Shown one piece after another: positions 22,810-50,844 of a stretch of DNA of 64,000 nucleotides. The notes under the pieces are model-generated. The model was not told where the DNA came from, did not search any database, and worked only from the letters and a program-made list of their open reading frames with translations. The stretch comes from Bugula neritina. Its lineage: Eukaryota > Bryozoa > Gymnolaemata > Cheilostomatida > Bugulidae. The stretch lies in NCBI GenBank assembly GCA_964035545.1, contig OZ037766.1, positions 12,285,722 through 12,349,721 of the forward strand, in the 5' to 3' direction. The position numbers and the translations under genes are program-made. Each line of letters begins with the position of its first letter. Position 1 is the stretch's first letter.

Positions 22810-25800
22810 CTGAAGAAGTGATAGCAGGAAGAGCGTGCTGCGAGACTGAAGTAGTAACATTTTGACAGACAACAGTTCCATCACGAAGAAGACGATAATT
22901 GGACTCAGTGAAAGTATGACCTGTAGGAACAACCTGGGCACACTGGTCAATGGTATAAGTAATAGAAGCAGAGCCGACAGGCTTATTGTCGACTAGCACA
23001 TAATCGGAATCAGACGATGAACCAGAAGAAATCACAGTTTCATCATCATCGATAACCAGCAGTGAAGGTGCCTTATTACCAAAAACAGTATCAGAAGAAG
23101 AATGACTGAAAGTCACAGGCTGCTCAAGAGGCAAAACAGTGCCTGAATCTAAATGTCTGGAATGACTGGAGACGATAGGAGAGAAGGTTATGACAGAATC
23201 AGCCTCCACAACTTCAATAGCGGATGAACCAGGTAAAAGCTGGGCATCATGAGATTGAAGAGAGACAGGTACAGTGTGACCATTGGAATGGCTGGAAGAA
23301 GGAACGGCCTGTGGAAAAGAAGTATCAAGGGAGTTGGGAGGGGAGGAAGAACTGCGCTGCTCAGTTGTAGAGAGAGAAGACGAATCGTTTGTTCCAAGCA
23401 TGTTAGGTCCATCACTGGTCGAAATATCAGCTTCAATAGCAGTAGAAGAGTTCAACAAAACCATCTCATGTACAGAAACCGACTCGAAAGACTCAACTAC
23501 TCCTGTTGTGTTACAAGCAAGCTGAAGATCACATGTAGACTTCTCAGAATCAGTTGCTTTGTTAAGAATAGACTGGTCTAGTTGCTCATTGACCACAGGC
23601 TCACATTCAACAGCATCTGTAGCTTCAGGTTCGACCTCCTGTTCAAGAACAACATATTCAGCAGAGTCTTGAACTTTTGCTTCAACGTTCTCAGTTGCAG
23701 GTTGTTCAGCATCTGCAGGTTCCTCAGCAACTGGCTGGCCTGCTTCCTCAGCACCCGTCTGGGCTGCCTCTTCAACAACCGTCTGGTCTGGCGCATCAGC
23801 AATAGTCAGATCTGGTTCTTCTGAGACAGGCTGGTCCTGTTTTTTAGCGACCGGCTGGGCTGGTTCCTCAGAAACAAGCAGGTCTACTTCCACAGAGACT
23901 GGCTGGGATGGCTCTTTGACGACAGTCTGTTCTGGTTCTTCAGAGACAAGCTGGTCTTGTTCAGCAGTGGCCGCAAGATCACTTTCAATGGCATTTGCAG
24001 CTACAGGAACAACATCCTCTTCAAGAACAACAGACTCAGCTGCGCCTTGGGCTTCTGCTTCACTGTCGTCAGTTGCAGGTGGTTGAGCATCTGCAGGTTC
24101 CACACCTGCGTGCTGGTCTGGCTCTTCGACAACTGGCTGATCTGGTTCCTCAGCAACAGTGTGGTCTGCTTCCTCAGCAACTGGCTGGTCTGCTTCCTCA
24201 GTCACGGTCTGGTCTGGCTCTTCACCAACAGGATAGTCTGGCTCTTGAGAGACTGGCTGGTCTGGTGCATCAGTGGGCGACTGGTCTGGCTCATCAGCAA
24301 CAGTCAGATCTGGCGCTTCACCAAGAATATGGTCTGTTTCTTCAGGCTCAGGTTGGTCTGGTTTCACAATGACCACAGGTTCACTTTCAACAGCATCTGT
24401 AACTTCAGGTACAACGTCCTCTTCAGCAACAACAGATTCAGCAGCGTCTTTGATTTCTGCTTCAATGTCATCAGTCGCAGGTTGTTCAGCATATGCTTGT
24501 TCCTCAGCAACAGGCAAGTCGACTTCTTCAGCAACATCCGAGACTGATTCCTCTACAACTGGCTGGTCCAGTTCTTCAGCAGCTGTCTGGTCAGGCTCCT
24601 CAGAGAATTGCTGGCCTGGTTCATCAGTGGGCATCTGGTCTGCCTCATCAGCAACAGTCAGATCTGGTTCTTCTGAGACAGACTGGTCTTCTTCAGTAAC
24701 TGTTGGGTATGGTTCTTCACAAACCGTCAGGTCTGGCTCTCTACCAACAGTATGGTCTGGTTCTTCAGACACTGGCTGGTCTGATTCTTCAGCAACCGTC
24801 TGGTCAGGCTCCTCAGAGACTTGCTCGTCTGGTTCATCAGTGGGCGTCTGGTCTGGCTTCTCAGAGACTTGCTGGTCTGGTTCATCAGTGGGCGTCTGGT
24901 ATGGCTCATCAGCAACCATAGGCTCTGCTTCCTCAGCAACAGTCTGGTCTGGTTCTACAGTGACCACAGGCTCACTTTCAACAGCTTCTACAGCTTCAGG
25001 TACAAGCTCTTCTTCAGCAGCGACAGAGTCCGCAGCGTCTTTGACTTCTGAATCAACGTCGCAGGTTGGAGGTTGTTCAGCATCTGTAAGTTCTTCGGCT
25101 ACCGGCTGGTCTGGGTCCACACGAGCTAACGGGTCTGGTTCTTCAGAAACCGTCTGGTCGAGCTCTTCAGCAACAGTCTGGACTGGTTCTTCAGCCACAA
25201 TCTGGTCTGTTTCTTCCGAGGCTGGCTGGTCTGGTTGTTCAGCAGCCGTCTGGTCAGGCTCCTTAGAGACATGCTGGTCTGGTGCATCAGTGGGCGTCTG
25301 GTCTGGCTCATCAGACACAGGCTGGTCTGGTTCCACAATATCCACAGGTTCACTTTCAACAGAATCTGTAACTTCAGGTACAACGTCCTCTTCAGCAACA
25401 ACAGATTCAGCAGCGTCTTTGATTTCTGCTTCAATGTCGTCAGTCGCAGGTTGTTCAGCATCTGCTTGTTTTTCAGCTGCTGTCTGGTCCGGTTCCTCAG
25501 CTACAGACAGGTATGGTTCCTCAGCAACAAGTTGGTCTGCTTCCTCAGTCGCAGTCTGGATTGATTCTTCAGAGGAAGGCAGGTCTGGATCTTGAGCAAC
25601 CGGCTGGTTTGATTCTTCAGCCACAGTCTGATCTAGGTCTTCAGCAAAAGGCTGGTGTGGCTTCTCAGCAACTGGCGGGTTTAGTTGTTCAGCAACCGTC
25701 TGGTCAGGCTCTTCAGAGACTTGCTGGTTTGGCTCATCTGTAACCGTCTGGTCTGCCTCCTCAGCAACAGCCTGGTCTGGCTCTTCAGAGACAGGTTGGT

Positions 25801-28800
25801 CCGGTTCTGCAGTAAACAAGGGCTCACTTACAACAGCATCTGTGGCTTCAGGTACAACCTCCTCTTGAGCGCCAACAGATTCAGTGGCGTCTTTGACCTC
25901 TGCAGGTTGTTCAGCAGACGTCTGGTTCGGTTCCTCAGCCACAGTCTGGTCTGAGTCTTCAGAGACTGGCTGATCTAGTTCTTCAGCAACAGTCTGGTCT
26001 AGGTGTTCAGCAACAGGCTGATCTGGTTCCTCAGAAACTGGCTGGTCCGCGTCTTCAGCAATAAACTGGTCAGGCTCCTCAGAGACTTGCTGGCGTGGTT
26101 CATCAGTTGGGGTTGCGCCTGGCTCCTCAGCAACAGTCAAATCTGGTTCTTCAGGGACAGACCGGTTTTGTTCTTCAGCAACAGTCTGGACCGGTTTTTC
26201 AGCCACAGTCTGGTCTGGTTCTTCAGAGAGAGGCTGGTCTGGTGGCTTAACAGCTGGCAGATCAGCTTTTTCGGCAGCCGTCTGTTCTTGTTCTTCACCA
26301 ACAGTATGGTCTGGTTCTTCTGAGACAGGCTGGTCTTCTTCTGCAACAGTCTGGTCTGGTTCTTCAGAAACCGTCTGGTCGGGCTCTTCAGCAACAGTCT
26401 GAACTGGTTCTTCAGCCACAGTCTGGTCTGGTTCTTCAGCAACCGTCAGATGTGCTTCCACAGCAACAGTCTGGTCTGGTTCTTCAGCAACAGTCAGGTT
26501 TGATTCTTCACCAACAGTCTGGGTCAGCTCATCAGAGACTAGTTGGTCTGGTGCATCAGTGGGCGTCTGGTCTGCCTCATCAGCAACCATAGGCTCTGGT
26601 TCCTCAGCAACAGTCTGGTCTGGCTCTTCAGAAACCGTCTGGTCTGGTTCTTCACCAACAGTATAGTCTGGTTTTTCTGAGACAGGTTGGTTTTCTTCTG
26701 CAACAGTCTGGTCTGGCTCTTCAGCAACAGCCTGGTCTGGTTCTTCAGAAACCGTCTGGTCTGGCTCATCAGCAACCATAAGCTCTGCTTCCTCAGCAAC
26801 AGTCTGGTAGGGTTCTTCAGGGACAGGTTGGCCCGGTTCCACAGTGACCACAGCCTCACTTTCAACAGCTTCTACAGCTTCAGGTACAAGCTTTTCTTCA
26901 GCAGCGACAGAGTCAGTAGCGTCTGAATCAACGTCGCAGGCTGGAGGTTGTTCCACATCTGTAGGTTCTTCGGCTACGAGCTGGTCCGGGTCCTCACCAG
27001 CTGGCTGGTCTGGTTCTTCAGAAACCGTCTGGTCGGGCTCTTCAGCAACAGTCTGGACTGGTTCTTCAGCCAGAATCCGGTCTGGTTCTTCAGATACTCG
27101 CTGGTCTGATTCTTCAGCAACAGTCGGGTCAGGCTCATCAGACACTTGCTGGTCGGGTTCATCAGTGGGCGTCTGGTCTGGCTCATCAGCAACCATAGGC
27201 TTTGCTTCCTCAGCAACAGTCTGGTCTGGTTCTTCAGAAACCGTCTGGTCGAGCTCTTCAGCAACAGTCTGAACTGGTTCTTCAGCCACAGTCTGGTCTG
27301 GTTCTTCAGCAACCGTCAGATCTGCTTCCACAGCAACAGTCTGGTCTGGTTCTTCAGCAACAGCCTGGTTTGATTCTTCACTAACAATCTGGGTTAGCTC
27401 ATCAGAAACTAGTTGGTCTGGTGCATCAGTGAGCGTCTGGTCTGCCTCATCAGCAACCATAGGCTCTGGTTCCTCAGCAACAGTCTGGTGTGGCTCTTCA
27501 GAAACCGTCTGGTCTGGTTCTTCACCAACAGTATAGTCTGGTTCTTCTGCAACAGTCTGGTCTGGCTCTTCAGCAACAGCCTGGTCTGGTTCTTCAGAAA
27601 CCGTCTGGTCGGGCTCTTCAGGAACAGTCTGGACTGGTTCTTCAGCCACAGTCTGCTCTGGTTCGTCAGAGACAGGCTGGTCTGGTGAATCAACAACTGC
27701 TTGGTCTGCATCTTCAGCAGCCATATGCTCTAGCTCTTCAGCAACAGACTGGTCTGGTTTTGCAGAAACTGGCTTGTCTGGTTCTTCAGCAATGGTTTGG
27801 TTTGGCTCATCACCAACAGTTTGGTCTGGCTCTTCAGCAACAGCCTGGTTTGATTCTTCACCAACAGTCTGGGTTGGCTCATCAGAGACTAGTTGGTCTG
27901 GCTCATCAGTGGGCGTCGGGTCTGCCTCATCAGCAACCATAGGCTCTGTTTCCTCAGCAATAGTCTGGTCTGGTTCTTCAGAGACAGGTTGGTCCGAAGC
28001 TACAGTGACCACAGGCTCACTTTCAACAGCTTCTACAGCTTCAGGTACAAGCTCTTCTTCAGCAGCGACAGAGTCAACAGCGTCTCTGCCTTCTGCTTTA
28101 ATGTCGTCAGTTGCAGGTTGTTCAGCATCTGCTTGTTCCCCAGGAACGGGCAGGTCGGCTTCTTCAGCAAGAGCTGAGACTGAATCCTCGACAATTGGCT
28201 GGTCCGGTTCTTCAGCAGCTATTTGGTCTGGCTCCTCAGAGACCTGCTGCTCTGGTTCATCAGTGGGTTTCTGGTCTGGCTCATCAGCAACAGTCAGACC
28301 TGGTTCTTCTGAGACATGCTGGTCTTCTTCAGCAACCGTCTGGTCTGGCTCTTCACCAACAGTATGGTCTGGTTCTTCAGACACTGGCTGGTCTGATTCT
28401 TCAGCAACCGTCTGGTCAGGCTCCTCAGAGACTTGCTGATCTGGTTCAGCAGTGGGCGTCTGGTCTGGCTCATCAGCAACCATAGGCTCTGCTTCCTCAG
28501 CAACAGTCGGGTCGGGTTCTTCAGGGACAGGTTGGTCCAGTTCCACAGTGACCACAGGCTCACTTTCAACAGCTTCTACAGATTCAGGTACAAGCTCTTC
28601 TTCAGCAGCGACAGAGTCAGCAGCATCTGAATCAACGTTGCAGGCTGGCGGTTGTTCAACATCTGTAGGTTCTTCGGCTGTGGGCTGGTCCGGGTCCTCA
28701 CCAGCTGGCTGGTCTGGTTCTTCAGAAACCGTCTGGTCGGGCTCTTCAGCAACAGTCTGGACTGGTTCTTCAGCCAGAATCCGGTCTGGTTCTTCAGATA

Positions 28801-31800
28801 CTCGCTGGTCTGATTCTTCAGCAACCGTCTGGTCTGGTTCTTCAGACACTTGCTGGTCGGGTTCATCAGTGGGCGTCTGGTCTGGCTCATCAGCAACCAT
28901 AGGCTTTGCTTCCTCAGCAACAGTCTGGTCTGGTTCTTCAGAAACCGTCTGGTCGAGCTCTTCAGCAACAGTCTGAACTGGTTCTTCAGCCACAGTCTGG
29001 TCTGGTTCTTCAGCAACCGTCAGATCTGCTTCCACAGCAACAGTCTGGTCTGGTTCTTCAGCAACAGTCTGGTCTGGTTCTTCAGCAACAGCCTGGTTTG
29101 ATTCTTCACTAACAATCTGGGTTAGCTCATCAGAAACTAGTTGGTCTGGTGCATCAGTGAGCGTCTGGTCTGCCTCATCAGCAACCATAGGCTCTGGTTC
29201 CTCAGCAACAGTCTGGTGTGGCTCTTCAGAAACCGTCTGGTCTGGTTCTTCCCGAACAGTATAGTCTGGTTCTTCTGCAACAGTCTGGTCTGGCTCTTCA
29301 GCAACAGCCTGCTCTGGTTCTTCAGAAACCGTCTGGTCGGGCTCTTCAGCAACAGTCTGAACTGGTTCTTCAGCCACAGTCTGGTCTGGTTCTTCAGCAA
29401 CCGTCAGATCTGCTTCCACAGCAACAGTCTGGTCTGGTTCTTCAGCAACAGTCTGGTCTGGTTCTTCAGCAACAGCCTGGTTTGATTCTTCACTAACAGT
29501 CTGGGTTAGCTCATCAGAAACTAGATGGTCTGGTGCATCAGTGGGCGTCTGGTCTGCCTCATCAGCAACCATAGGCTCTGGTTCCTCAGCAACAGTCTGG
29601 TGTGGCTCTTCAGAAACCGTCTGGTCTGGTTCTTCCCGAACAGTATAGTCTGCTTCTTCTGCAACAGTCTGGTCTGGCTCTTCAGCAACAGCCTGGTCTG
29701 GTTCTTCAGAAACCGTCTGGTCGGGCTCTTCAGGAACAGTCTGGACTGGTTCTTCAGCCACAGTCTGCTCTGGTTCGTCAGAGACAGGCTGGTCTGGTGA
29801 TTCAACAACTGCTTGGTCTGCATCTTCAGCAGCCATATGCTCTAGCTCTTCAGCAACAGACTGGTCTGGTTTTGCAGAAACTGGCTTGTCTGGTTCTTCA
29901 GCAATGGTTTGGTTTGGCTCATCACCAACAGTTTGGTCTGGCTCTTCAGCAACAGCCTGGTTTGATTCTTCACCAACAGTCTGGGTTGGCTCATCAGAGA
30001 CTAGTTGGTCTGGCTCATCAGTGGGCGTCGGGTCTGCCTCATCAGCAACCATAGGCTCTGTTTCCTCAGCAATAGTCTGGTCTGGTTCTTCAGAGACAGG
30101 TTGGTCCGAAGCTACAGTGACCACAGGCTCACTTTCAACAGCTTCTACAGCTTCAGGTACAAGCTCTTCTTCAGCAGCGACAGAGTCAACAGCGTCTCTG
30201 CCTTCTGCTTTAATGTCGTCAGTTGCAGGTTGTTCAGCATCTGCTTGTTCCCCAGGAACGGGCAGGTCGGCTTCTTCAGCAAGAGCTGAGACTGAATCCT
30301 CGACAATTGGCTGGTCCGGTTCTTCAGCAGCTATTTGGTCTGGCTCCTCAGAGACCTGCTGCTCTGGTTCATCAGTGGGTTTCTGGTCTGGCTCATCAGC
30401 AACAGTCAGATCTGGTTCTTCTGAGACATGCTGGTCTTCTTCAGCAACCGTCTGGTCTGGCTCTTCACCAACAGTATGGTCTGGTTCTTCAGACACTGGC
30501 TGGTCTGATTCTTCAGCAACCGTCTGGTCAGGCTCCTCAGAGACTTGCTGATCTGGTTCATCAGTGGGCGTCTGGTCTGGCTCATCAGCAACCATAGGCT
30601 CTGCTTCCTCAGCAACAGTCGGGTCGGGTTCATCAGGGACAGGTTGGTCCGGTTCCACAGTGACCACAGGCTCACTTTCAACAGCTTCTACAGATTCAGG
30701 TACAAGCTCTTCTTCAGCAGCGACAGAGTCAGCAGCATCTGAATCAACGTTGCAGGCTGGCGGTTGTTCAACATCTGTAGGTTCTTCGGCTGTGGGCTGG
30801 TCCGGGTCCTCACCAGCTGGCTGGTCTGGTTCTTCAGAAACCGTCTGGTCGGGCTCTTCAGCAACAGTCTGAACTGGTTCTTCAGCCAGAATCTGGTCTG
30901 GTTCTTCAGATACTGGCTGGTCGGATTCTTCAGCAACCGTCTGGTCAGGCTCCTCAGAGACTTGCTGGTGGGCTTCATCAGTGGGCGTCTGGTCTGGCTC
31001 ATCAACAACAGTATGGTCTGATTCTTCTGAGACAGGCTGGTCTGGTTCTTCAGAAACCGTCTGGTCGTGCTCTTCAGGAACAGTCTGGACTGGTTCTTCA
31101 GCCACAGTCTGATCTGGTTCCTCAGAGACAGGCTGGTCTGGTGACTCAACAACTGCTTGGTCTGCATCTTCAGCAACAGTCTGGTCTGGTTCTTCAGCAA
31201 CAGCCTGGTTTGATTCTTCACTAACAATCTGGGTTAGCTCATCAGAAACTAGTTGGTCTGGTGCATCAGTGAGCGTCTGGTCTGCCTCATCAGCAACCAT
31301 AGGCTCTGGTTCCTCAGCAACAGTCTGGTGTGGCTCTTCAGAAACCGTCTGGTCTGGTTCTTCCCGAACAGTATAGTCTGGTTCTTCTGCAACAGTCTGG
31401 TCTGGCTCTTCAGCAACAGCCTGCTCTGGTTCTTCAGAAACCGTCTGGTCGGGCTCTTCAGCAACAGTCTGAACTGGTTCTTCAGCCACAGTCTGGTCTG
31501 GTTCTTCAGCAACCGTCAGATCTGCTTCCACAGCAACAGTCTGGTCTGGTTCTTCAGCAACAGTCTGGTCTGGTTCTTCAGCAACAGCCTGGTTTGATTC
31601 TTCACTAACAGTCTGGGTTAGCTCATCAGAAACTAGATGGTCTGGTGCATCAGTGGGCGTCTGGTCTGCCTCATCAGCAACCATAGGCTCTGGTTCCTCA
31701 GCAACAGTCTGGTGTGGCTCTTCAGAAACCGTCTGGTCTGGTTCTTCCCGAACAGTATAGTCTGCTTCTTCTGCAACAGTCTGGTCTGGCTCTTCAGCAA

Positions 31801-34800
31801 CAGCCTGGTCTGGTTCTTCAGAAACCGTCTGGTCGGGCTCTTCAGGAACAGTCTGGACTGGTTCTTCAGCCACAGTCTGCTCTGGTTCGTCAGAGACAGG
31901 CTGGTCTGGTGATTCAACAACTGCTTGGTCTGCATCTTCAGCAGCCATATGCTCTAGCTCTTCAGCAACAGACTGGTCTGGTTTTGCAGAAACTGGCTTG
32001 TCTGGTTCTTCAGCAATGGTTTGGTTTGGCTCATCACCAACAGTTTGGTCTGGCTCTTCAGCAACAGCCTGGTTTGATTCTTCACCAACAGTCTGGGTTG
32101 GCTCATCAGAGACTAGTTGGTCTGGCTCATCAGTGGGCGTCGGGTCTGCCTCATCAGCAACCATAGGCTCTGTTTCCTCAGCAATAGTCTGGTCTGGTTC
32201 TTCAGAGACAGGTTGGTCCGAAGCTACAGTGACCACAGGCTCACTTTCAACAGCTTCTACAGCTTCAGGTACAAGCTCTTCTTCAGCAGCGACAGAGTCA
32301 ACAGCGTCTCTGCCTTCTGCTTTAATGTCGTCAGTTGCAGGTTGTTCAGCATCTGCTTGTTCCCCAGGAACGGGCAGGTCGGCTTCTTCAGCAAGAGCTG
32401 AGACTGAATCCTCGACAATTGGCTGGTCCGGTTCTTCAGCAGCTATTTGGTCTGGCTCCTCAGAGACCTGCTGCTCTGGTTCATCAGTGGGTTTCTGGTC
32501 TGGCTCATCAGCAACAGTCAGATCTGGTTCTTCTGAGACATGCTGGTCTTCTTCAGCAACCGTCTGGTCTGGCTCTTCACCAACAGTATGGTCTGGTTCT
32601 TCAGACACTGGCTGGTCTGATTCTTCAGCAACCGTCTGGTCAGGCTCCTCAGAGACTTGCTGATCTGGTTCATCAGTGGGCGTCTGGTCTGGCTCATCAG
32701 CAACCATAGGCTCTGCTTCCTCAGCAACAGTCGGGTCGGGTTCATCAGGGACAGGTTGGTCCGGTTCCACAGTGACCACAGGCTCACTTTCAACAGCTTC
32801 TACAGATTCAGGTACAAGCTCTTCTTCAGCAGCGACAGAGTCAGCAGCATCTGAATCAACGTTGCAGGCTGGCGGTTGTTCAACATCTGTAGGTTCTTCG
32901 GCTGTGGGCTGGTCCGGGTCCTCACCAGCTGGCTGGTCTGGTTCTTCAGAAACCGTCTGGTCGGGCTCTTCAGCAACAGTCTGAACTGGTTCTTCAGCCA
33001 GAATCTGGTCTGGTTCTTCAGATACTGGCTGGTCGGATTCTTCAGCAACCGTCTGGTCAGGCTCCTCAGAGACTTGCTGGTGGGCTTCATCAGTGGGCGT
33101 CTGGTCTGGCTCATCAACAACAGTATGGTCTGATTCTTCTGAGACAGGCTGGTCTGGTTCTTCAGAAACCGTCTGGTCGTGCTCTTCAGGAACAGTCTGG
33201 ACTGGTTCTTCAGCCACAGTCTGATCTGGTTCCTCAGAGACAGGCTGGTCTGGTGACTCAACAACTGCTTGGTCTGCATCTTCCGCAGCCATCTGCTCTG
33301 GCTCTTCAGCAACAGACGGGTCTGGTTTTGCAGAAACTGGCTTGTCTGATTCTTCAGCAATGGTCTTGTCTGGCTCCTCACCAACAGTCTGGTCTGGTTC
33401 TTCAGCAACAGCCTGGCTCGATTCTTCACCAACAGTCTGGGTTGGGTCATCAGAGACTAGTTGGTCTGGTTCATCAGTGGGCGTCTGGTCTGCCTCATCA
33501 GCAACCATAGGCTCTGTTTCCTTAGCAACAGTCTGGTCTGGTTCTTCAGAGACAGGTTGGTCCGGTTCTACAGTGACCACAGGCTCACTTTCAACAGCTT
33601 CTACAGCTTCAGGTACAAGCTCTTCTTCAGCAGCGACAGAGTCAGCTACGTCTCCGATTTCTGCTTTAATGTCGTCAGTTGCAGGTTGTTCAGCATCTGC
33701 TTGTTCCCCAGGAACGGGCAGGTCGGCTTCTTCAGGAAGAGCGGAGACTGAATCCTCAACAACTGGCTGGTCCGGTTCTTCAGCAGTTATCTGGTCTGGC
33801 TCCTCAGAGACTTGCTGGTCTGGTTCATCAGTGGGCGTCGGGTCTGCCTCATCAGCAACCATAAGCTCTGTTTCCTCAGCAACAGTCTGGTCTGGTTCGT
33901 CAGAGACAGGTTGGTCCGGTTCCAGAGTGACCACAGGCTCACTTTCAACAGCTTCTACAGCTTCAAGTACAAGCTTTTCTTCAGCAGCGACAGAGTCAGT
34001 AGCGTCTGAATCAACGTCGCAGGCTGGAGGTTGTTCAACATCTGTAGGTTTTTCGGCTACGAACTGGTCCGGGTCTTCACCAGCTGGCTGGTCTGGTTCT
34101 TCAGAAACCGTCTGGTCAGGCTCTTCAGCAACAGTCTGGACTGGTTCTTCAGCCAGAATCCGGTCTGGTTCTTCAGATACTGGCTGGTCTGATTCTTCAG
34201 CAACAGTAGGGTCAGGCTCATCAGACACCTGCTGGTCGGGTTCATCAGTGGGCGTCTGGTCTGGCTCATCAGCAACCATAGGCTTTGCTTCCTCAGCAAC
34301 AGTCTGATCTGGTTCTTCAGAAACCGTCTGGTCGGGCTCTTCAGCAACAGTCTGAACTGGTTCTTCAGCCACAGTCTGGTCTGTTTCTTCAGCAACCGTC
34401 AGATCTGCTTCCACAGCAACAGTCTGGTCTGGTTCTTCAGCAACAGTCTGGTCTGGCTCTTCAGCAACAGCCTGGTCTGGTTCTTCAGAAACCGTCTGGT
34501 CGGGCTCTTCAGGAACAGTCTGGACTGGTTCTTCAGCCACAGTCTGCTCTGGTTCCTCAGAGACAGGCTGGTCTGGTGTATCAACAACTGCTTGGTCTGC
34601 ATCTTCAGCAGCCATCTGCTCTAGCTCTTCAGCAACAGACTGGTCTGGTTTTGCAGAAACTGGCTTGTCTGGTTCTTCAGCAATGGTCTGGTTTGGCTCC
34701 TCACCAACAGTTTGGTCTGGCTCTTCAGCAACAGCCTGGTTTGATTCTTCACCAACAGTCTGGGTTGGCTCATCAGAGACTAGTTGGTCTGGCTCATCAG

Positions 34801-37800
34801 TGGGCGTCGGGTCTGCCTCATCAGCAACCATAGGCTCTGTTTCCTCAGCAATAGTCTGGTCTGGTTCTTCAGAGACAGGTTGGTCCGAAGCTACAGTGAC
34901 CACAGGCTCACTTTCAACAGCTTCTACAGCTTCAGGTACAAGCTCTTCTTCAGCAGCGACAGAGTCAACATCGTCTCTGTCTTCTGCTTTAATGTCGTCA
35001 GTTGCAGGTTGTACAGCATCTGCTTGTTCCCCAGGAACGGGCAGGTCGGCTTCTTCAGCAAGAGCTAAGACTGAATCCTCGACAATTGGCTGGTCCGGTT
35101 CTTCAGCAGCTATTTGGTCTGGCTCCTCAGAGACCTGCTGCTCTGGTTCATCAGTGGGTTTCTGGTCTGGCTCATCAGCAACAGTCAGATCTGGTTCCTC
35201 TGAGACAGGCTGGTCTTCTTCAGAAACCGTCTGGTCTGGATCTTCACCAACAGTATGGTCTGGTTCTTCAGACACTGGCTGGTCTGATTCTTCAGCAACC
35301 GTCTGGTCAGGCTCCTCAGAGACTTGCTGGTCTGGTTCATCAGTGGGCGTCTGGTCTGGCTCATCAGCAACCATGGGCTCTGCTTCCTCAGCAACAGTCG
35401 GGTCGGGTTCTTCAGGGACAGGTTGGTCCGGGTACACAGTGACTACAGGCTCACTTTCAACGGTTTTTACAGCTTCAGGTACAAGCTTTTCTTCAGCAGC
35501 GACAGAGTCAGCAGCATCTGAATCAACGTTGCAGGCTGGCGGTTGCTCAACATCTGTAGGCTCTTCGGCTGTGGGCTGGTCCGGGTCCTCACCAGCTGGC
35601 TGGTCTGGTTCTTCAGAAACCGTCTGGTCGGGCTCTTCAGCAACAGTCTGGACTGGTTCTTCAGCCACAGTCTGGTCTGGTTCTTCAGAGACAGGTTGGT
35701 CCGGTTCTACAGTGACTACAGGCTCACTTTCAACAGCTTCTATAGCTTCAGGTACAAGCTCTTCTTCAGCAGCGACAGAGTCAGCAGCGCCTCTGATTTC
35801 TGCTTTAATGTCGTCAGTTGCAGGTTGTTCAGCATCTGCTTGTTCCCCAGGAACGGGCAGGTCGGCTTCTTTAGCAAGAGCGGAGACTGACTCCTCAACT
35901 ACTGGCTGGTCTGGTTCTTCAGCAGCTGTCTGGTCTGGCTCCTCAGAGACTTGCTGGTCTGAGTCATCAGTGGGTATCTGATCTGGCTCATCAACAACCG
36001 TCTGGTCTGGTTCTTCAGAAACCATCTGGTCTGGTTCGTCGCCAACAGTATAGTCTGGTTCTTCAGCATCATGCTGGTCTTCTTCAGCAACAGCCTGGTC
36101 TGGTTCTTCAGAGACAGTTTGGTCCGGTTCCACAGTGACCACAGGCTCGCTTTCAACAGCTTCTACAGCTTCAGGTACAAGCTCTTCTTCAGCAGCGACA
36201 GAGTCAGCAGCATCTGAATCAACGTTGCAGGCTGGCGGTTGTTCAACATCTGTAGGTTCTTCGGCTGTGGGCTGGTCCGGGTCCTCACCAGCTGGCTGGT
36301 CTGGTTCTTCAGAAATCGTCTGGTTGGGCTCTTCAGCAACAGTCTGAACTGGTTCTTCAGCCAGAATCTGGTCTGGTTCTTCAGATATTGGCTGGTCTGA
36401 TTCTTCAGCAACCGTCTGGTCCGGCTCCTCAGAGACTTGCTTGTGGGCTTCATCAGTGGGCGTCTGGTCTGGTTCTTCACCAACAGTATAATCTGGTTCT
36501 TCTGAGACAGGCTGATTTTCTTCAGCAACCGTCTGGTCTTGTTCTTCAGAAACCGTCTGGTCTGGCTCTTCACCAACAGAATGGTCTGGTTCTTCAGACA
36601 CTGGCTGGTCTGATTCTTCAGCAACCGTCTGGTCAGGCTCCTCAGAGACTTGCTGGTGGGCTTCATCAGTGGGCGTCTGGTCTGGCTCATCAACAACAGT
36701 ATGGTCTGATTCTTCTGAGACAGGCTGGTCTGGTTCTTCAGAAACCGTCTGGTCGGGCTCTTCAGGAACAGTCTGGACTGGTTCTTCAGCCACAGTCTGG
36801 TCAGGCTCTTCAGCAACAGTCTGGACTGGTTCTTCAGCCACAGTCTGATCTGGTTCCTCAGAGACAGGCTGGTCTGGTGACTCAACAACTGCTTGGTCTG
36901 CATCTTCCGCAGCCATCTGCTCTGGCTCTTCAGCAACAGACTGGTCTGGTTTTGCAGAAACTGGCTTGTCTGGTTCTTCAGCAATGGTCTTGTCTGGCTC
37001 CTCACCAACAGTCTGGTCTGGTTCTTCAGCAACAGCCTGGTTCGATTCTTCACCAACAGTCTGGGTTGGGTCATCAGAGACTAGTTGGTCTGGTTCATCA
37101 GTGGGCGTCTGGTCTGCCTCATCAGCAACCATAGGCTCTGTTTCCTTAGCAACAGTCTGGTCTGGTTCTTCAGAGACAGGTTGGTCCGGTTCTACAGTGA
37201 CCACAGGCTCACTTTCAACAGCTTCTACAGCTTCAGGTACAAGCTCTTCTTCAGCAGCGACAGAGTCAGCTACGTCTCCGATTTCTGCTTTAATGTCGTC
37301 AGTTGCAGGTTGTTCAGCATCTGCTTGTTCCCCAGGAACAGGCAGGTCGGCTTCTTCAGCAAGAGAGGAGACTGAATCCTCAACAACTGGTTGGTCCGGT
37401 TCTTCAACAGTTATCTGGTCTGGCTCCTCAGAGACTTGCTGGTCTGGTTCATCAGTGGGCGTCGGGTCTGCCTCATCAGCAACCATAGGCTCTGTTTCCT
37501 CAGCAACAGTCTGGTCTGGTTCGTCAGAGACAGGTTGGTCCGGTTCCACAGTGACCACAGGCTCACTTTCAACAGCTTCTACAGCTTCAGGTACAAGCTT
37601 TTCTTCAGCAGCGACAGAGTCAGTAGCGTCTGAATCAACGTCGCAGGCTGGAGGTTGTTCCACATCTGTAGGTTCTTCGGCTACGAGCTGGTCCGGGTCC
37701 TCACCAGCTGGCTGGTCGGGCTCTTCAGCAACAGTCTGAACTGGTTCTTCAGCCAGAATCTGGTCTGGTTCTTCAGATACTGGCTGGTCTGATTCTTCAG

Positions 37801-40800
37801 CAACCTTCTGGTCAGGCTCCTCAGAGACGTGCTGGTGGGCTTCATCAGTGGGCGTCTGGTCTGGCTCATCAACAACAGTATGGTCTGATTCTTCTGAGAC
37901 AGGTTGGTCTGGTTCTTCAGAAACCGTCTGGTCGGGCTCTTCAGCAACAGTCTGAACTGGTTCTTCAGCCACAGTCTGGTCTGGTTCTTCAGCAACCGTC
38001 AGATCTGCTTCCACAGCAACAGTCTGGTCTGGTTCTTCAGCAACAGCCTGGTTTGATTCTTCACTAACAGTCTGGGTTAGCTCATCAGAAACTAGTTGGT
38101 CTGGTGCATCAGTGGGCGTCTGGTCTGCCTCATCAGCAACCACAGGCTCTGGTTCCTCAGCAACAGTCTGGTCTGGTTCTTCAGAAACCGTCTGGTCGGG
38201 CTCTTCAGCAACAGTCTGGACTGGTTCTTCAGCCAGAATCCGGTCTGGTTCTTCAGATACTGGCTGGTCTGATTCTTCAGCAACAGTCGGGTCAGGCTCC
38301 TCAGACACTTGCTGGTCGGGTTCATCAGTGGGCGTCTGGTCTGGCTCATCAACAACCATCGGGTCTGCTTCCCCAGCAACCGTCTGGTCTGGTTCTTCAG
38401 CAGCCGTCTGGTCTGGTTCTTCACCAACAGTACGGTCTGGTTCTTCACCAACAGTATGGTCTTCTTCTGCAACAGCCTGGTCTGGCTTTTCAGCAACAGT
38501 CTGGTCTGGTTCTTCGGAGACCGTCTGGTCAGGCTCTTCAGCAACAGTCTGAACTGGTTCTTCAGCCACAGTCTGGTCTGGTTCTTCAGCAACTGTCTGG
38601 TCTGGTTCTTCACCAACAGTATAGTCTGGTTTTTCTGAGACAGGCTGGTTTTCTTCTGCAACAGTCTGGTCTGGCTCTTCAGCAACAGCCTGGTCTGGTT
38701 CTTCAGAAACCGTCTGGTCGGGCTCTTCAGCAACAGTCTGGACTGGTTCTTCAGCCACAGTCTGATCTGGTTCCTCAGAGACAGGCTGGTCTGGTGACTC
38801 AACAACTGCTTGGTCTGCATCTTCCGCAGCCATCTGCTCTGGCTCTTCAGCAACAGACTGGTCTGGTTTTGCAGAAACTGGCTTGTCTGGTTCTTCAGCA
38901 ATGGTCTTGTCTGGCTCCTCACCAACAGTCTGGTCTGGTTCTTCAGCAACAGCCTGGTTCGATTCTTCACCAACAGTCTGGGTTGGGTCATCAGAGACTA
39001 GTTGGTCTGGTTCATCAGTGGGCGTCTGGTCTGCCTCATCAGCAACCATAGGCTCTGTTTCCTTAGCAACAGTCTGGTCTGGTTCTTCAGAGACAGGTTG
39101 GTCCGGTTCTACAGTGACCACAGGCTCACTTTCAACAGCTTCTACAGCTTCAGGTACAAGCTCTTCTTCAGCAGCGACAGAGTCAGCTACGTCTCCGATT
39201 TCTGCTTTAATGTCGTCAGTTGCAGGTTGTTCAGCATCTGCTTGTTCCCCAGGAACAGGCAGGTCGGCTTCTTCAGCAAGAGAGGAGACTGAATCCTCAA
39301 CAACTGGCTGGTCCGGTTCTTCAACAGTTATCTGGTCTGGCTCCTCAGAGACTTGCTGGTCTGGTTCATCAGTGGGCGTCGGGTCTGCCTCATCAGCAAC
39401 CATAGGCTCTGTTTCCTCAGCAACAGTCTGGTCTGGTTCGTCAGAGACAGGTTGGTCCGGTTCCACAGTGACCACAGGCTCACTTTCAACAGCTTCTACA
39501 GCTTCAGGTACAAGCTTTTCTTCAGCAGCGACAGAGTCAGTAGCGTCTGAATCAACGTCGCAGGCTGGAGGTTGTTCCACATCTGTAGGTTCTTCGGCTA
39601 CGACCTGGTCCGGGTCCTCACCAGCTGGCTGGTCGGGCTCTTCAGCAACAGTCTGAACTGGTTCTTCAGCCAGAATCTGGTCTGGTTCTTCAGATACTGG
39701 CTGGTCTGATTCTTCAGCAACCTTCTGGTCAGGCTCCTCAGAGACGTGCTGGTGGGCTTCATCAGTGGGCGTCTGGTCTGGCTCATCAACAACAGTATGG
39801 TCTGATTCTTCTGAGACAGGTTGGTCTGGTTCTTCAGAAACCGTCTGGTCGGGCTCTTCAGCAACAGTCTGAACTGGTTCTTCAGCCACAGTCTGGTCTG
39901 GTTCTTCAGCAACCGTCAGATCTGCTTCCACAGCAACAGTCTGGTCTGGTTCTTCAGCAACAGCCTGGTTTGATTCTTCACTAACAGTCTGGGTTAGCTC
40001 ATCAGAAACTAGTTGGTCTGGTGCATCAGTGGGCGTCTGGTCTGTCTCATCAGCAACCACAGGCTCTGGTTCCTCAGCAACAGTCTGGTCTGGTTCTTCA
40101 GAAACCGTCTGGTCGGGCTCTTCAGCAACAGTCTGGACTGGTTCTTCAGCCAGAATCCGGTCTGGTTCTTCAGATACTGGCTGGTCTGATTCTTCAGCAA
40201 CAGTCGGGTCAGGCTCTTCAGACACTTGCTGGTCGGGTTCATCAGTGGGCGTCTGGTCTGGCTCATCAACAACCATCGGGTCTGCTTCCCCAGCAACCGT
40301 CTGGTCTGGTTCTTCAGCAGCCGTCTGGTCTGGTTCTTCACCAACAGTACGGTCTGGTTCTTCACCAACAGTATGGTCTTCTTCTGCAACAGCCTGGTCT
40401 GGCTTTTCAGCAACAGTCTGGTCTGGTTCTTCGGAGACCGTCTGGTCAGGCTCTTCAGCAACAGTCTGAACTGGTTCTTCAGCCACAGTCTGGTCTGGTT
40501 CTTCAGCAACTGTCTGGTCTGGTTCTTCACCAACAGTATAGTCTGGTTTTTCTGAGACAGGCTGGTTTTCTTCTGCAACAGTCTGGTCTGGCTCTTCAGC
40601 AACAGCCTGGTCTGGTTCTTCAGAAACCGTCTGGTCGGGCTCTTCAGGAACAGTCTGGACTGGTTCTTCAGCCACAGTCTGCTCTGGTTCCTCAGAGACA
40701 AGCTGGTCTGGTGACTCAACAACTGCTCGGTCTGCATCTTCAGCAGCCATCTGCTCTGGCTCTTCAGCAACAGACTGGTCTGGTTTTGCAGAAACTGGCT

Positions 40801-43800
40801 TGTCTGGTTCTTCAGCAATGGTCTGGTCTGGCTCCTCACCAACAGTCTGGTCTGGCTCTTCAGCAACAGCCTGGTTTGATTCTTCACCAACAGTATGGGT
40901 TGGCTCATTAGAGACTAGTTGGTCTGGTTCATCAGTGGGCGTCCGGTCTGCCTCATCAGCAACCATAGGCTCTGTTTCCTCAGCAACAGTCTGGTCTGGT
41001 TCTTCAGAGACAGGTTGGTCTGGTTCTACAGTGACCACAGGCTCACTTTCAACAGCTTCTACAGCTTCAGGTACAAGCTTTTCTTCAGCAGCGACAGAGT
41101 CAGCAGCGTCTCTGATTTCTGCTTTAATGTCGTCAGTTGCAGGTTGTTCAGCATCTGCTTGTTCCCCAGGAACGGGCAGGTCGGCTTCTTCAGCAAGAGT
41201 GGAGACTGAATCCTCAACAACTGGCTGGTCCGGTTCTTCAGCAGCTATCTGGTCTGGCTCCTCAGAGACCTGCTGCTCTGGTTCATCAGTGGGTATCTGG
41301 TCTGGCTCATCAGCAACAGTCAGATCTGGTTCTTCTGAGACAGGCTGGTCTTTTTCAGCAACCGTCTGGTCTGGTTCTTCAGAAACCGTCTGGTCTGGCT
41401 CTTCACCAACAGTATGGTCTGGTTCTTCAGACACTGGCTGGTCTGATTCTTCAGCAACCGTCTGGTCAGGCTCCTCAGAGACTTGCTGGTGGGCTTCATC
41501 AGTGGGCGTCTGGTCTGGCTCATCAATAACAGTATGGTCTGATTCTTCTGAGACAGGCTGATCTGGTTCTTCAGAAACCGTCTGCTCGGGCTCTTCAGGA
41601 ACAGTCTGGACTGGTTCTTCAGCCACAGTCTGCTCCGGCAGGTCGACTTCTTCAGCAAGAGCGGAGACTGAATCCTCAACAACTGGCTGGTCCGGTTCTT
41701 CAGCAGCTATCTGGTCTGGCTCCTCAGAGACTTGCTGCTCTGGTTCATCAGTGGGCATCTGGTCTGGCTCATCAGCAACAGTCAGATCTGGTTCTTCTGA
41801 GACAGGCTGGTCTTCTTCAGCAACGGTCTGGTCTGGTTCTTCAGAAACCGTCCGGTCTGGTTCTTCAGACACTGGCTGGTCTGGTTCTTCAGACACTGGC
41901 TGGTCTGATTCTTCAGCAACTGTCTGGTCAGGCTTCTCAGAGACTTGCTGGTCTGGTTCATCAGTGGGCGTCTGGTCTGGCTCATCAGCAACCATAGGCT
42001 CTGCTTCCTCAGCAACAGCCTGGTTCGATTCTTCACCAACAGTCTGGGTTGGGTCATCAGAGACTAGTTGGTGTGGTTCATCAGTGGGCGTCTGGTCTGC
42101 CTCATCAGCAACCATAGGCTCTGTTTCCTTAGCAACAGTCTGGTCTGGTTCTTCAGAGACAGGTTGGTCCGGTTCTACAGTGACCACAGGCTCACTTTCA
42201 ACAGCTTCTACAGCTTCAGGTACAAGCTCTTCTTCAGCAGCGACAGAGTCAGCTACGTCTCCGATTTCTGCTTTAATGTCGTCAGTTGCAGGTTGTTCAG
42301 CATCTGCTTGTTCCCCAGGAACGGGCAGGTCGGCTTCTTCAGGAAGAGCGGAGACTGAATCCTCAACAACTGGCTGGTCCGGTTCTTCAGCAGTTATCTG
42401 GTCTGGCTCCTCAGAGACTTGCTGGTCTGGTTCATCAGTGGGCGTCGGGTCTGCCTCATCAGCATCCATAGGCTCTGTTTCCTCAGCAACAGTCTGGTCT
42501 GGTTTGTCAGAGACAGGTTGGTCCGGTTCCACAGCGACCACAGGCTCACTTTCAACAGCTTCTACAGCTTCAGGTACAAGCTTTTCTTCAGCAGCGACAG
42601 AGTCAGTAGCGTCTGAATCAACGTTGCAGGCTGAAGGTTGTTCCACATCTGTAGGTTCTTCGGCTACGAGCTGGTCCGGGTCCTCACCAGCTGGCTGGTC
42701 TGGTTCTTCAGAACCCGTCTGGTCGGGCTCTTCTGCAACAGTCTGGACTGGTGCTTCAGCCACAGTCTGCTCCGGCAGGTCGACTTCTTCAGCAAGAGCG
42801 GAGACTGAATCCTCAACAACTGGCTGGTCCGGTTCTTCAGCAGCTATCTGGTCTGGCTCCTCAGAGACTTGCTGGACTGGTTCATCAGTGGGCATCTGGT
42901 CTGGCTCATCAGCAACAGTCAGATCTGGTTCTTCTGAGACAGCCTGGTCTTCTTCAGCAACCGTCTGGTCTTGTTCTTCAGAAACCGTCCGGTCTGGTTC
43001 TTCAGACACTGGCTGGTCTGGTTCTTCAGACACTGGCTGGTCTGATTCTTCAGCAACTGTCTGGTCAGGCTTCTCAGAGACTTTCTGGTCTGGTTCATCA
43101 GTGGGCGTCTGGTCTGGCTCATCAGCAACCATAGGCTCTGCTTCCTCAGCAACAGTCTGGTCTGGTTCTTCAGACACTGGCTGGTCTGATTCTTCAGCAA
43201 CTGTCTGGTCAGGCTTCTCAGAGACTTTCTGGTCTGGTTCATCAGTGGGCGTCTGGTCTGGCTCATCAGCAACCATAGGCTCTGCTTCCCCAGCAACAGT
43301 CTGGTCGGGTTGTTCAGGGACAGGTTGGTCCGGTTCCTCAGTGACCACAGGCTCACTTTCAACAGCTTCTACAGCTTCTACAGCTTCAGGTACAAGCTCT
43401 TTTTCAGCAACAACAGATTCAGTAGCGTCTGAATCAACGTCGCAGGCTGGAGGTTGTTCAACATCTGTAGGTTCTTCAGCTTCGAGCTGGTCCGGGTCCT
43501 CACCAGCTGGCTGGTCTGGTTCTTCAGAAACCGTCTGGTCGGGCTCTTCAGCAACAGTCTGGACTGGTTCTTCAGCCAGAATCTGGTCTGATTCTTCAGT
43601 TACTGGCTGGTCTGATTCTTCAGCAACCGTCTGGTCAGGCTCCTCAGAGACTTGCTGGTGGGCTTCATCAGTGGGCGTCTGGTCTGGCTCATCAACAACC
43701 ATCGGGTCTGCTTCCTCAGAAACCGTCTGGTCTGGCTCTTCACCAACAGTATGGTCTGGTTCTTCTAAGACAGGCTGGTCTTCTTTTGTAACAGTCTGGT

Positions 43801-46800: not shown

Positions 46801-49800
46801 GCTGGTCCGATTTTTCAGCAAGCGTCTGGTCAGGCTCCTCAGAAACTTGGTGGTCTGGTTCATCAGTGGGCGTCTGGTCTGGCTCTTCAAAGACTTGCTG
46901 GCCTGGTTCATCAGTGGGCGTCTGGTATGGCTTACCAGCAACCATAGGCTCTGCTTCCTCAGCAACCGTCTGGTCTGGCTCTTCACCAACAGTATGGTCT
47001 GGTTCTTCTGAGACAGGCTGGTCTGGCTCTTCAGCAACCGTCAGATCTGCTTCCACAGCAACAGTCTGGTCTGGTTCTTCAGCAACAGTCTGGTTTGGTT
47101 CTTCAGCAACAGTCTGGTCTGGTTCTTCAGCAACAGTCTGGTTTGATTCTTCACTAACAGTCTGGGTTGGCTCATCAGAGACTAGTTGGTCTGGTTTATC
47201 AGTGGGCGTCGGGTCTGCCTCATCAGCAACAGTCAGATCTGGTTTTTCTGAGACAGGCTGGTCTGGCTCTTCAGCAACAGTCTGGTCTGGTTCTTCAGAA
47301 ACCGTCTGGTCTGGCTCTTCACCAACAGTATGGTCTGGTTCTTCTGAGACAGGCTGGTCTGGCTCTTCAGCAACCGTCAGATCTGCTTCCACAGCAACAG
47401 TCTGGTCTGGTTCTTCAGCAACAGTCTGGTCTGGTTCTTCAGCAACAGTCTGGTCTGGTTCTTCAGCAGCAGTCTGGTTTGATTCTTCACTAACAGTCTG
47501 GGTTGGCTCATCAGAGACTAGTTGGTCTGGTTTATCAGTGGGCGTCGGGTCTGCCTCATCAGCAACAGTCAGATCTGGTTTTTCTGAGACAGGCTGGTCT
47601 GGCTCTTCAGCAACAGTCTGGTCTGGTTCTTCAGAAACCGTCTGGTCGGGCTCATCAGCAACAGTCTGGACTGGTTCTTCAGCCACAGTCTGGTCTGGTT
47701 CTTCAGCAACCGTCAGATCTGCTTCCACAGCAACAGTCTGGTCTGGTTCTTCAGCAACAGTCTGGTCTGGTTCTTCAGCAACAGTCTGGTCTGGTTCTTC
47801 AGCAACAGTCTGGTCTGGTTCTTCAGCAGCAGTCTGGTTTGATTCTTCACTAACAGTCTGGGTTGGCTCATCAGAGACTAGTTGGTCTGGTTTATCAGTG
47901 GGCGTCGGGTCTGCCTCATCAGCAACAGTCAGATCTGGTTTTTCTGAGACAGGCTGGTCTGGCTCTTCAGCAACAGTCTGGTCTGGTTCTTCAGAAACCG
48001 TCTGGTCGGGCTCATCAGCAACAGTCTGGACTGGTTCTTCAGCCACAGTCTGGTCTGGTTCTTCAGCAACCGTCAGATCTGCTTCCACAGCAACAGTCTG
48101 GTCTGGTTCTTCAGCAACAGTCTGGTTTGATTCTTCACTAAAAGTCTGGGTTGGCTCATCAGAGACTAGTTGGTCTGGTGCATCAGTGGGCGTCGGGTCT
48201 GCCTCATCAGCAACCATAGGCTCTGTTTCCTCAGCAACAGTCTGATCTGGTTCTTCAGAGACAGGTTGGTCCGGTTCTACAGTGACCACAGGCTCACTTT
48301 CAACAGCTTCTACAGCTTCAGGTACAAGCTCTTCTTCAGCAGCGACAGAATCAGCAGCGTCTCTGATTTCTGCTTTAATGTCGTCAGTTGCAGGTTGTTC
48401 AGCATCTGCTTGTTCCCCAGGAACGGGCAAGTCGGCTTCTTCAGCAAGAGCGGAGACTGCCCCAACAACTGGCTGGTCCGGTTCTTCAGCAGCTGTCTGG
48501 TCTGGCTCCTCAGAGACTTGCTGGACTGGTTCATCAGTGGGCATCTGGTCTGGCTCATCAGCAACAGTCAGATCTGGTTCTTCTGAGACAGGCTGATCTT
48601 CTTCAGCAACCGATTGGTCTAGTTCTTCAGAAACCGTCTGGTCTGGCTCTTCACCAACAGTATGGTCTGGTTCTTCAGACACTGGCTGATCTGATTCTTC
48701 AGCAACCGTCTGGTCAGGCTCCTCAGAGACTTGCTCGTCTGGTTCATCAGTGGGCGTCTGGTCTGGCTCATCAGCAACCATAGGCTTTGCTTCCTCAGCA
48801 ACAGTCTGGTCGGGTTCTTCAGAGACAGGTTGGTCCGGTTCTACAGTGACTACAGGCTCACTTTCAACAGCTTCTACAGCTTCAGGTACAAGCTCTTTTT
48901 CAGCAGCGACAGAGTCAGCAGCGTCTGAATCAACGTCGCAGGCTAGAGGTTGTTCAACATCTGTAGGTTTTTCGGCTACGAGCTGGTCCGGGTCCTCACC
49001 AGCTGGTTGGTCTGGTTCTTTAGAAACCATCTGGACTGGTTCTTCAGCAACATGCTGGTCTTCTTCAGCAACAGTCTGGTCTGGCTCTTCACCAACAGTC
49101 TGGTCTGGCTCTTCAGCAACAGCCTGGTCTGGTGCTTCAGAAACCGTCTGGTCGGGCTCTTCAGCAACAGTCTGGACTGGTTCTTCAGCCACAGTCTGGT
49201 CTGGTTCTTCAGAGATAGGTTGGTCCGGTTCTACAGTGACTACAGGCTCACTTTCAACAGCTTCTACAGCTTCAGGTATAAGCTCCTCTTCAGCAGCAAC
49301 AGAGGCAGCAGCGTCTTTGACTTCTGAATCAACGTCGCAAGCTGGATGTTGTTCAGCATCTGTAGGTTCCTCAGTTACAGGCTGGTCTGGTTCTTCAGCA
49401 ACCGCCTGGTTAGGCTCCTCAGAGACTTTCTGGTCTGGTTCATCAGTGGGCATCTGGTCTGGCTCATCAGCAACAGTCTGGTCTAGTTCCTCAGAGACAA
49501 CCTGATCGGGTTCCACAGCGACCACAGGCTCACTTTCAACAGCTCTTACAGCTTCAGGTACAAGTTCTTCTTCAGCAGCGACAGAGGCAGCAGCGTCTTT
49601 GACTTCTGATTCAACGTCGCAAGTTGGATGTTGTTCAGCATCTGTAGGTTCCTCAGTTACAGGCTGGTCTGGTTCTTCAGCAACCGCCTGGTCAGGCTCC
49701 TCAGAGACTTTCTGGTCTGGTTCATCAGTGGGCATCTGGTCTGGCTCATCAGCAACAGTCTGGTCTAGTTCCTCAGTGACAGGTTGGTCTGTTTCCACAG

Positions 49801-50844
49801 AGACCACAGGCTCACTTTCAACAGTTTCTACGGCTTCAGGTACAACCTCCTCTTCAGCAACAACAGATTTCGCAGCGTCTTTGAGTTCTGCTTTAATGTC
49901 GTCAGTTGCAGGTGGTTCAGCACCTGCACGTACCTCAGCAACCGGCAGGTCTACGTCTTCAGCAACAGCGGGGACCGATTCCTCAACAACCGGCTGGTCT
50001 GCTTCCTCAGCAACAGCCTGGTATGGCTCTTCAGAAACAGGTTGGTCTCGTTCCACAGTGACCACGGGTGCACTTTCAACAGCTTCTGTAGCTTCAGGTA
50101 CAACCTCCTCTTCAGCAACAACAGATTCAGCAGCGTCTTTGATTTCTGCTTCAATATCGTCGGTTGCAGGTTGTTCAGCATCTGCTTGTTCCTCAGCAAC
50201 CAGCAGGTCGGCTTCTTCAGCAACAGTCTGGACTAGTTCCTCAACAACTGGCTGGTTTGGCTCTTCAGCAATAGGCTGGTCTGGTTCTTCAGAGACAGGT
50301 TGGTCTGGTTCCATAGTGACCACAGGTGCACTTTCAACAGCCTCCGTAGCTTCAGGTACAACTTGCTCTTCGGTCACAATAAGTTCTGTAGTGTCCGTAA
50401 CTTCTGCTTGATTTTGACTTGCTTCAACTTTATCAGCTGCAAGCACTTCATCACTCACTGGTTCTTCAGCTGCAGGCTGCTCTACAGTGATTGTGGGCTC
50501 AATTTCTGATGCTTCAATCCCAATGTCAGGCTTATCAATCAGCTTAACTTCTGAGGTTCGTTCAACTTCTGTAGTGAGCTTTTGTGTAGGTAATTGTGTA
50601 GCAGTATCATTCTGTGCATAATCTTCACCCCTTTTTGAACTACTTTTATTTTCCAGAATTGCCTGAGCTGTCGGGCTTATTTCTTCAATGGAAATGGATT
50701 CATGGAATGGTTTACTCAGGTTATGTGCTTTGCTCTCACTAGAAGCACTTGTTACGGTCATACATAACGTAATTTCTTCTCGTCTCATAAGCTCATTAGA
50801 TACCTGGGCAATTGCCTTCCCAGCAGCATCATTTTCTGATGAAG
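22810..50844 (-). CDS. ank: Ankyrin giant exon 1: 28,035 bp, 9,345 residues
   Basis: Acceptor GTTTTCGTTTTAG before base 50844, donor TTCAG|GTTTGT after 22810, phase 1 to 1, no internal stop. Residues 1 to about 120 (ASSENDAAGKAIAQVSNELM onward) and the last 250 or so are ordinary Ser/Thr-rich disordered sequence. Everything between is a hugely expanded acidic array built on an 8-residue, 24-bp unit (EEPDQTVA, EEPDQPVS and variants). The array is punctuated about 30 times by a 45-55 residue module ending SVAAEEELVPEAVEAVESEP. The array has about 35% Glu plus Asp, almost no Lys, Arg or aromatic residues, and its few Cys sit in the module (PPACDVDSD). It should be a roughly 1-MDa extended polyanion on the cytoplasmic side of the membrane skeleton. 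If the intron after it is retained, a stop follows after four codons. Confidence 0.92.
27400..33280 (-). repeat. Higher-order repeat, three copies of 2,112 bp
   Basis: Sequence at about 27.4-29.5 kb recurs at +2,112 and +4,224 with only scattered differences. For example, the stretches starting 27774, 29886 and 31998 match over about 660 bp with one or two coding changes between the first pair. 2,112 is 88 units of 24 bp, or 704 codons. The third copy diverges from the second near 33280. Confidence 0.85.
36850..40610 (-). repeat. Higher-order repeat, two copies of 1,917 bp
   Basis: Sequence from about 36.85 kb recurs 1,917 bp later (for example 37085 and 39002, 38104 and 40021), nearly identical over about 1.8 kb. 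1,917 is 639 codons, so the frame is kept. Confidence 0.85.
45454..48140 (-). repeat. Nested duplications of 1,713 and 360 bp
   Basis: The block at 45454-45970 recurs at 47167-47680 (offset 1,713). Within the second copy, the unit starting at 47503 recurs at 47863 (offset 360, 15 units of 24 bp). Both offsets are multiples of three. Confidence 0.8.

Follow-up and report, generated by a model that had tools for sequence, protein, structure and literature searches.

A single coding exon of 28,035 bp was found in an ankyrin gene on chromosome 2 of the Bugula neritina assembly, within the 64,000-nucleotide stretch of DNA that was analysed (the window, whose coordinates are used below). The exon lies on the minus strand (50844-22810), its length is a multiple of 3, and it contains 9,344 full codons and one split codon (~9,345 aa). 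The enclosing stop-to-stop frame (22796-50986, minus strand) runs for 9,396 codons without a stop. Both exon ends, the acceptor at 50844 and the donor at 22810, are in phase 1. Scored with approximate weights, this acceptor ranked first among the acceptors scanned over the opening 600 bases of the frame, and this donor first among the donors scanned over its closing 600 bases. The computed mass of the product is 1.00 MDa. The observation of a giant ankyrin exon is confirmed: an earlier note on this DNA had described a single 28-kb coding exon of about 9,345 residues, with phase-1 ends and a product of about 1 MDa, belonging to an ankyrin gene, and all of this agrees with our analysis. Its consensus splice sites are indeed the best at both scanned ends, but the donor (CAG/GTTTGT, score 2.0) is only moderate. 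We consider it probable that the exon is a phase-1 giant-isoform cassette placed after the Death domain, which encodes a disordered acidic spacer and is followed by a tail motif for docking Atg8 proteins. The features are collected in Table 1.

Table 1. Features of the giant ankyrin locus of Bugula neritina (window coordinates)
Feature	Position	Strand	Basis
UPA domain, two exons (63669-63441 and 63174-62914)	62914..63669	-	domain match + gene model
Death domain exon, upstream of giant exon	61006..61200	-	domain match + splice scoring
Tail exon, phase 1-1; 33-bp (11-aa) repeat in 34 copies at 56974-58095	56601..58367	-	
Tail exon, phase 1-1	54495..54647	-	splice scoring + gene model
Predicted short tail exon just upstream of giant exon, phase 1-1	52069..52134	-	gene model
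Giant exon, phase 1-1, 1.00-MDa acidic repeat product	22810..50844	-	frame + splice scoring + composition
38 linker modules between arrays of 8-aa EEPDQTVA-like units	23510..50512	-	matches >50 bits
Higher-order tandem repeat with a 1,917-bp period, 97.1% over 2,738 bp	36710..41364	-	
Higher-order tandem repeat with a 2,112-bp period and a 2,117-bp exact match	29055..33283	-	
SDYVLV, candidate Atg8-binding motif, non-repetitive end of giant exon	22991..23008	-	pattern match
EDEWVHV, candidate Atg8/GABARAP-interaction-type motif, start of next exon	22553..22573	-	pattern + alignment
Next tail exon after giant exon, phase 1-1, ten database relatives	21640..22602	-	
Tail exon, phase 1-1	17024..18046	-	splice scoring + gene model
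Large tail exon within 1,646-aa frame, 71-aa repeat x3, 3' end uncertain	10154..14941	-	

Upstream of the giant exon and on the same strand, ANK repeats, ZU5, UPA and Death domains follow each other in that order. In domain tests Ank exceeded the cut-off in four of four exon frames and ZU5 in the single frame tested; UPA (in two exons) and Death were likewise detected. A dynamic-programming gene model of the region 96-10 kb gave 65 exons, limited to 2,100 bases except for two long frames, for which the acceptors 50844 and 14941 were supplied. Because of these supplied acceptors, and because exons of the same gene served as training set for the codon scores, the model is a consistency check and not an independent finding. 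It missed the Death-domain exon. In an edited version, from which 12 exons judged weak were dropped and to which the Death exon was added, 54 exons encode 15,302 aa, a total that is not claimed as one isoform and of which the giant exon makes up 61%. Neighbouring exons had to be compatible in phase in the model, but did not have to be symmetric; all ten consecutive exons from 58367 to 17024 were phase 1-1, so that each of these tail exons could be skipped without a frame shift.

The link between the giant exon and the ankyrin gene is predicted here from genomic sequence, and an in-frame Met is present near the start of the exon, as would suit a separate coding gene nested in an ankyrin intron with its own promoter. 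We regard such a gene as very unlikely, in view of the top-scoring acceptor and donor, which are in phase 1 like the neighbouring tail exons, and of the unbroken series of ten 1-1 exons (in a model that was given the giant exon as a candidate). Ankyrin anchors cell membranes to the internal cell skeleton; as a cassette of the ankyrin gene, the exon would convert the normal protein to a giant form, and neurons are presumably where this happens.

Four long tail frames gave no Pfam match over the cut-off. The 1,646-aa tail frame has two database homologues. The 71-aa repeat of this frame (at 10101-15038) is present in 3 copies here and in 4 copies in the close relative P0011, and P0012 shows no recognisable copy; all three share three FE-[LM]E stretches. 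Tail frames with their own tandem repeats were seen at 56974-58095 (33 bp/11 aa), 59847-59996 (27 bp/9 aa, absent from the gene model) and 12417-13053 (213 bp/71 aa), and the ankyrin tail seems to evolve repeat arrays repeatedly. Between the ankyrin repeats and ZU5, beyond the end of the window, the model placed 18 exons (78133-68304, ~960 aa), many of which carry PDGK or V-VPAGT-type repeats. Nine of these 18 exon frames were compared with Pfam; none exceeded the cut-off, seven had no match at E up to 1, and the best match was Tcp10_C (E 0.067). This block is possibly a new ankyrin insert.

Several other elements were noted in the region and in the genome. Upstream of the gene, at 104-124 kb in window coordinates, repeated ZU5-like fragments were read by eye, and 19 of the 27 ZU5 matches in the genome are clustered on contig C4 (12.4-13.1 Mb). 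At window positions 929-1222 and at further sites downstream of the gene, a repeated frame resembling MVEKSDKSKLLGVS was seen in four copies; it encodes a short protein that may span the membrane. On contig C6 (11174072-11175412) a near-full COX1 copy has the look of mitochondrial DNA inserted into the nuclear genome, and the COX1-family genes on contigs C17, C65 and C196 look foreign to the animal. The invertebrate code gives a good reading of the mitochondrial COX1 itself, by visual comparison with conserved residues; its codons, like the species match, indicate a protostome.

The product of the giant exon contains 3,002 D/E and 172 K/R residues (K+R 1.7%) and has a pI of 4.05. It was previously called polyanionic and aromatic-free; with 15 F, 28 Y and no W the product is aromatic-poor instead of aromatic-free. 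The residues S, E, T, D, K and P account for 59.4% and S+E for 26.2%, compared with >55% and ~25% in the signature of giant-ankyrin exons (PMC5135030). The basic 8-residue unit, EEPDQTVA, occurs in 112 exact copies, and arrays of such units alternate with 38 linker modules, whose starts are 86-582 aa apart (module edges were our choice, and the coordinates carry a margin of 6 aa). The last ~240 residues are non-repetitive, the last linker ending at residue 9105. Two tandem higher-order repeats are identical or nearly identical over long parts, hence much of the array is young; the one with the 2,112-bp period, judged by its exact match, reflects recent duplication, and the length of the array is probably still changing. 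No homologues of the array were found at E <= 0.001 (residues 1-4000, 500 candidates scored). In the genome all the listed matches to the repeat, part of a total of 162 from searches that score the best candidates only, fall inside the giant exon.

The reading frame of the array is under constraint. Pairs of internal stretches with 75% or more identity across 240 bp lie at 3,011 distinct offsets, every one a multiple of 3. Modulo 24 these offsets occupy each of the eight multiple-of-3 classes, so the in-frame rule is not merely a consequence of the 24-bp unit. Over array residues 111-9110 the coding frame has no stop in 9,000 codons, 3,019 of which are one change away from a stop, compared with 184 and 1,269 stops in the other sense frames and 188, 63 and 178 in the antisense frames. 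When 427 random point changes were simulated (200 trials), a mean of 15.3 stops and a minimum of 7 were produced. Nearest copies that are at least 80% identical differ by 148 synonymous and 279 amino-acid single changes, which is 0.69 of the neutral ratio, and of ~21 nonsense changes expected among them 0 are present. At 70-97% identity, nearest copies carry amino-acid changes at less than the neutral rate (ratios 0.58-0.74); the most recent copies (at least 97%) look neutral at 1.07, a ratio based on 75 changes only. In overlapping, non-independent segments pN/pS was 0.505 in the coding frame, and the two remaining sense frames gave 0.861 and 1.215. One antisense frame gave 0.523, close to the value of the coding frame; the ratio alone is therefore no proof, and the argument is placed on the frame and the stops. 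On these two grounds selection on the reading frame, as proposed in the earlier note, is supported.

The same counts bear on whether the stretch could be an intronic satellite, its long frame a by-product of a 24-bp unit that happens to lack stops. Tandem repeats do dominate the stretch, and antisense frames also reach 753 aa. However, all 3,011 in-frame offsets, spread over the eight classes, at least 63 stops in every other frame, phase-1 ends that agree with the flanking exons and a composition that agrees with giant-ankyrin exons make a satellite very improbable.

A possible, though rather unlikely, case is that the exon is real but that its length was inflated or collapsed by the assembly, or varies between animals; this is compatible with a giant-isoform cassette. 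One tandem match of 2,117 bp is exact, only 34% of the 31-mers are unique, the mean HiFi read is ~9.7 kb (by division of published figures), and the relative mentioned above has one more copy of the 71-aa tail repeat. Against a wrong length speak the 132-fold HiFi coverage of the assembly, its QV of 53.7, and the longest exact repeat, which is well under the mean read length.

Avoidance of cryptic processing sites in the giant exon was considered and dropped, since a comparison with 200 synonymous shuffles, in which the repeat copies are not independent of each other, had a mixed outcome. The strongest internal donor (4.9 vs 7.6) was weaker than in all 200 shuffles, total GT (1,396 vs 1,422.9) was below all 200, and acceptor-like sites numbered 48 vs 91.1. 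No avoidance was seen for middling donor-like sites (55 vs 43.4), GTAAG/GTGAG (54 vs 30.7) or poly(A)-like hexamers (15 vs 8.9).

The start of the next exon contains a conserved motif, EDEWVHV, which fits both the xLIR pattern and the [WF][VI]xV core. All ten database relatives of this exon matched at E 3.7e-26 or better, and in the alignment 7 of the 11 rows (Bugula neritina and six relatives) reach the motif site. The other four do not extend as far as the Trp; in three the sequence begins at a Met inside or next to the motif. Among the seven rows the Trp and W-x-x-[LIV] are kept in all and the strict [WF][VI]xV in five; in all seven W-V-x-[VIL] is retained, next to sequence that has diverged. 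Among the six relatives one is almost the same as the Bugula neritina exon (98%), which leaves five independent relatives. Pairwise identity, with gaps counted as differences, was 0.69 in the seven motif columns vs 0.01-0.16 in the following seven 7-column blocks. Conservation is higher still in other blocks of the exon (up to 1.0), above all around PDGTVVTRKITKT.

A 42-aa query compared with 177,635 PDB sequences (E up to 10) gave two matches, neither significant, 5dpr (E 0.22) and 3x0w (E 0.51). The first is named PLEKHM1 and LC3 and the second LC3B only; in both an EDEWVNV stretch lies ahead of LC3. A search with a motif profile put proteasome beta-8 first (E 0.091; 6 of the 8 matches), with the two LC3 entries at 0.35 and 0.39. 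The Bugula neritina genome contains Atg8-family matches over the cut-off (7 pieces). The [W/F]-[V/I]-X-V motif is reported to prefer GABARAP-subfamily proteins (PMC6499816), and peptides of vertebrate giant ankyrins bind GABARAP strongly (PMC7803741).

Near the exon junction, in a region picked after the matches were seen, 5 xLIR matches occur in 614 aa, compared with a shuffle mean of 0.63, and none of 2,000 shuffles reached 5; across the whole giant exon 3 were found vs 1.6 in shuffles. A second candidate, SDYVLV, was rejected as a lead from structure, the region around it having only two unrelated PDB matches (E 0.23 and 1.6).

Taken together, the acidic array of ~9,000 residues probably grew by in-frame tandem duplication at three levels, namely 8-aa units, linker-bearing blocks and higher-order repeats of 1.9-2.1 kb. 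Its composition fits a disordered polyanionic spacer, and the entropic brush or very long spacer suggested in the earlier note is plausible on that basis; if disordered, the array would have an end-to-end distance of ~0.1-0.3 micrometre and a contour length of 3.4 micrometres (textbook scaling). Included in the mRNA, the array would most likely be a disordered negative spacer holding the C-terminal tail off the spectrin-membrane skeleton, and the conserved W-V-x-[VIL] motif of the tail would then dock GABARAP/LC3-type Atg8 proteins. Giant ankyrins have several ways of coupling the membrane skeleton to microtubules (PMC7159925), and in Drosophila axon diameter is set by a microtubule-organising complex of Ank2-L and Ank2-XL with Futsch (PMC6131297). 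Acidic as it is, the array would be expected to have little affinity for the likewise acidic tails of tubulin, so we read it as a spacer and leave such binding to other tail exons, which may reach microtubules. More tentatively, and with rather more doubt than confidence, it may be proposed that protostome giant ankyrins, like those of vertebrates, carry a conserved GABARAP dock in the tail. In the bryozoan this dock would lie at the distal tip of an acidic tether of megadalton size, and exon length would determine how far away the membrane skeleton can hold or position receptors or vesicles coated with Atg8.

Giant ankyrins were described across Bilateria, with repeat arrays in a subset, by Jegla et al. 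2016 (PMC5135030). According to that paper the long ankyrin exon lies broadly after the Death domain in protostomes and before it in vertebrates, and known long ankyrin exons have a mean length of 8,103 bp (n = 30). Here the Death exon (61200-61006) is followed by the giant exon from 50844 on the minus strand, and the locus combines the Ank-ZU5-UPA-Death set with an exon thousands of bases long. Every tested feature of giant ankyrins was found, composition included; the locus is thus, from its sequence, a giant ankyrin, new in this species and at the large end of the size range. The species list in the figure legend of PMC5135030 is without Bryozoa, and among titles found in a literature search none concerned bryozoan giant ankyrins. 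The exon extends giant ankyrins to Bryozoa and illustrates the length that a single coding exon can reach with its frame kept, and the conserved motif would allow the vertebrate giant-ankyrin link to GABARAP to be tested outside vertebrates.

In size, the exon is more than 3 times the mean long ankyrin exon, in line with the earlier estimate of several times. The record length implied in the same note does not hold against human mucin exons: in a mucin preprint the human MUC12 protein reaches up to 23,080 aa, and its exon, which is longer than the one described here, is the largest of the human genome, far above the 27,303-bp GRIN2B exon. The longest MUC4 allele in that preprint (27,843 bp) falls just below the 28,035 bp of Bugula neritina. 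MUC12 and MUC4 are similar in having single tandem-repeat coding exons of this length or longer; they are mucin glycoproteins and not ankyrins, and are compared for size only. The PEVK segment of titin is a disordered polymer rich in proline, glutamate and valine, with much lysine. By description, not by sequence, it resembles the probably disordered bryozoan array, likewise rich in these three residues, but it is lysine-rich, in contrast to the low K+R content found here.

Among ankyrins, the giant isoform of C. elegans UNC-44 likewise has a long exon after the Death domain, in the longest ORF of its genome; the comparison is by description, and PMC5135030 reports no long-exon homology across these phyla. 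Drosophila Ank2-XL (~1,200 kDa) is of the same order of size as the Bugula neritina product. Also compared by description and not by sequence, it shares an ankyrin gene with more than one long exon, a long exon after the Death domain and a large in-frame array. Its core array consists of 93 repeats of 76 aa, however, whereas the Bugula neritina array is built from 8-aa units and 38 linkers; only in very close species can repeats of the Ank2-XL type be recognised as similar (PMC5135030). The vertebrate giant ankyrin-B and ankyrin-G share a giant exon, and their peptides are the strong GABARAP binders cited above (PMC7803741), but their long exon lies before the Death domain and AnkG is without a repeat array, and in Bugula neritina the candidate GABARAP-type motif belongs to the exon that follows the giant exon.
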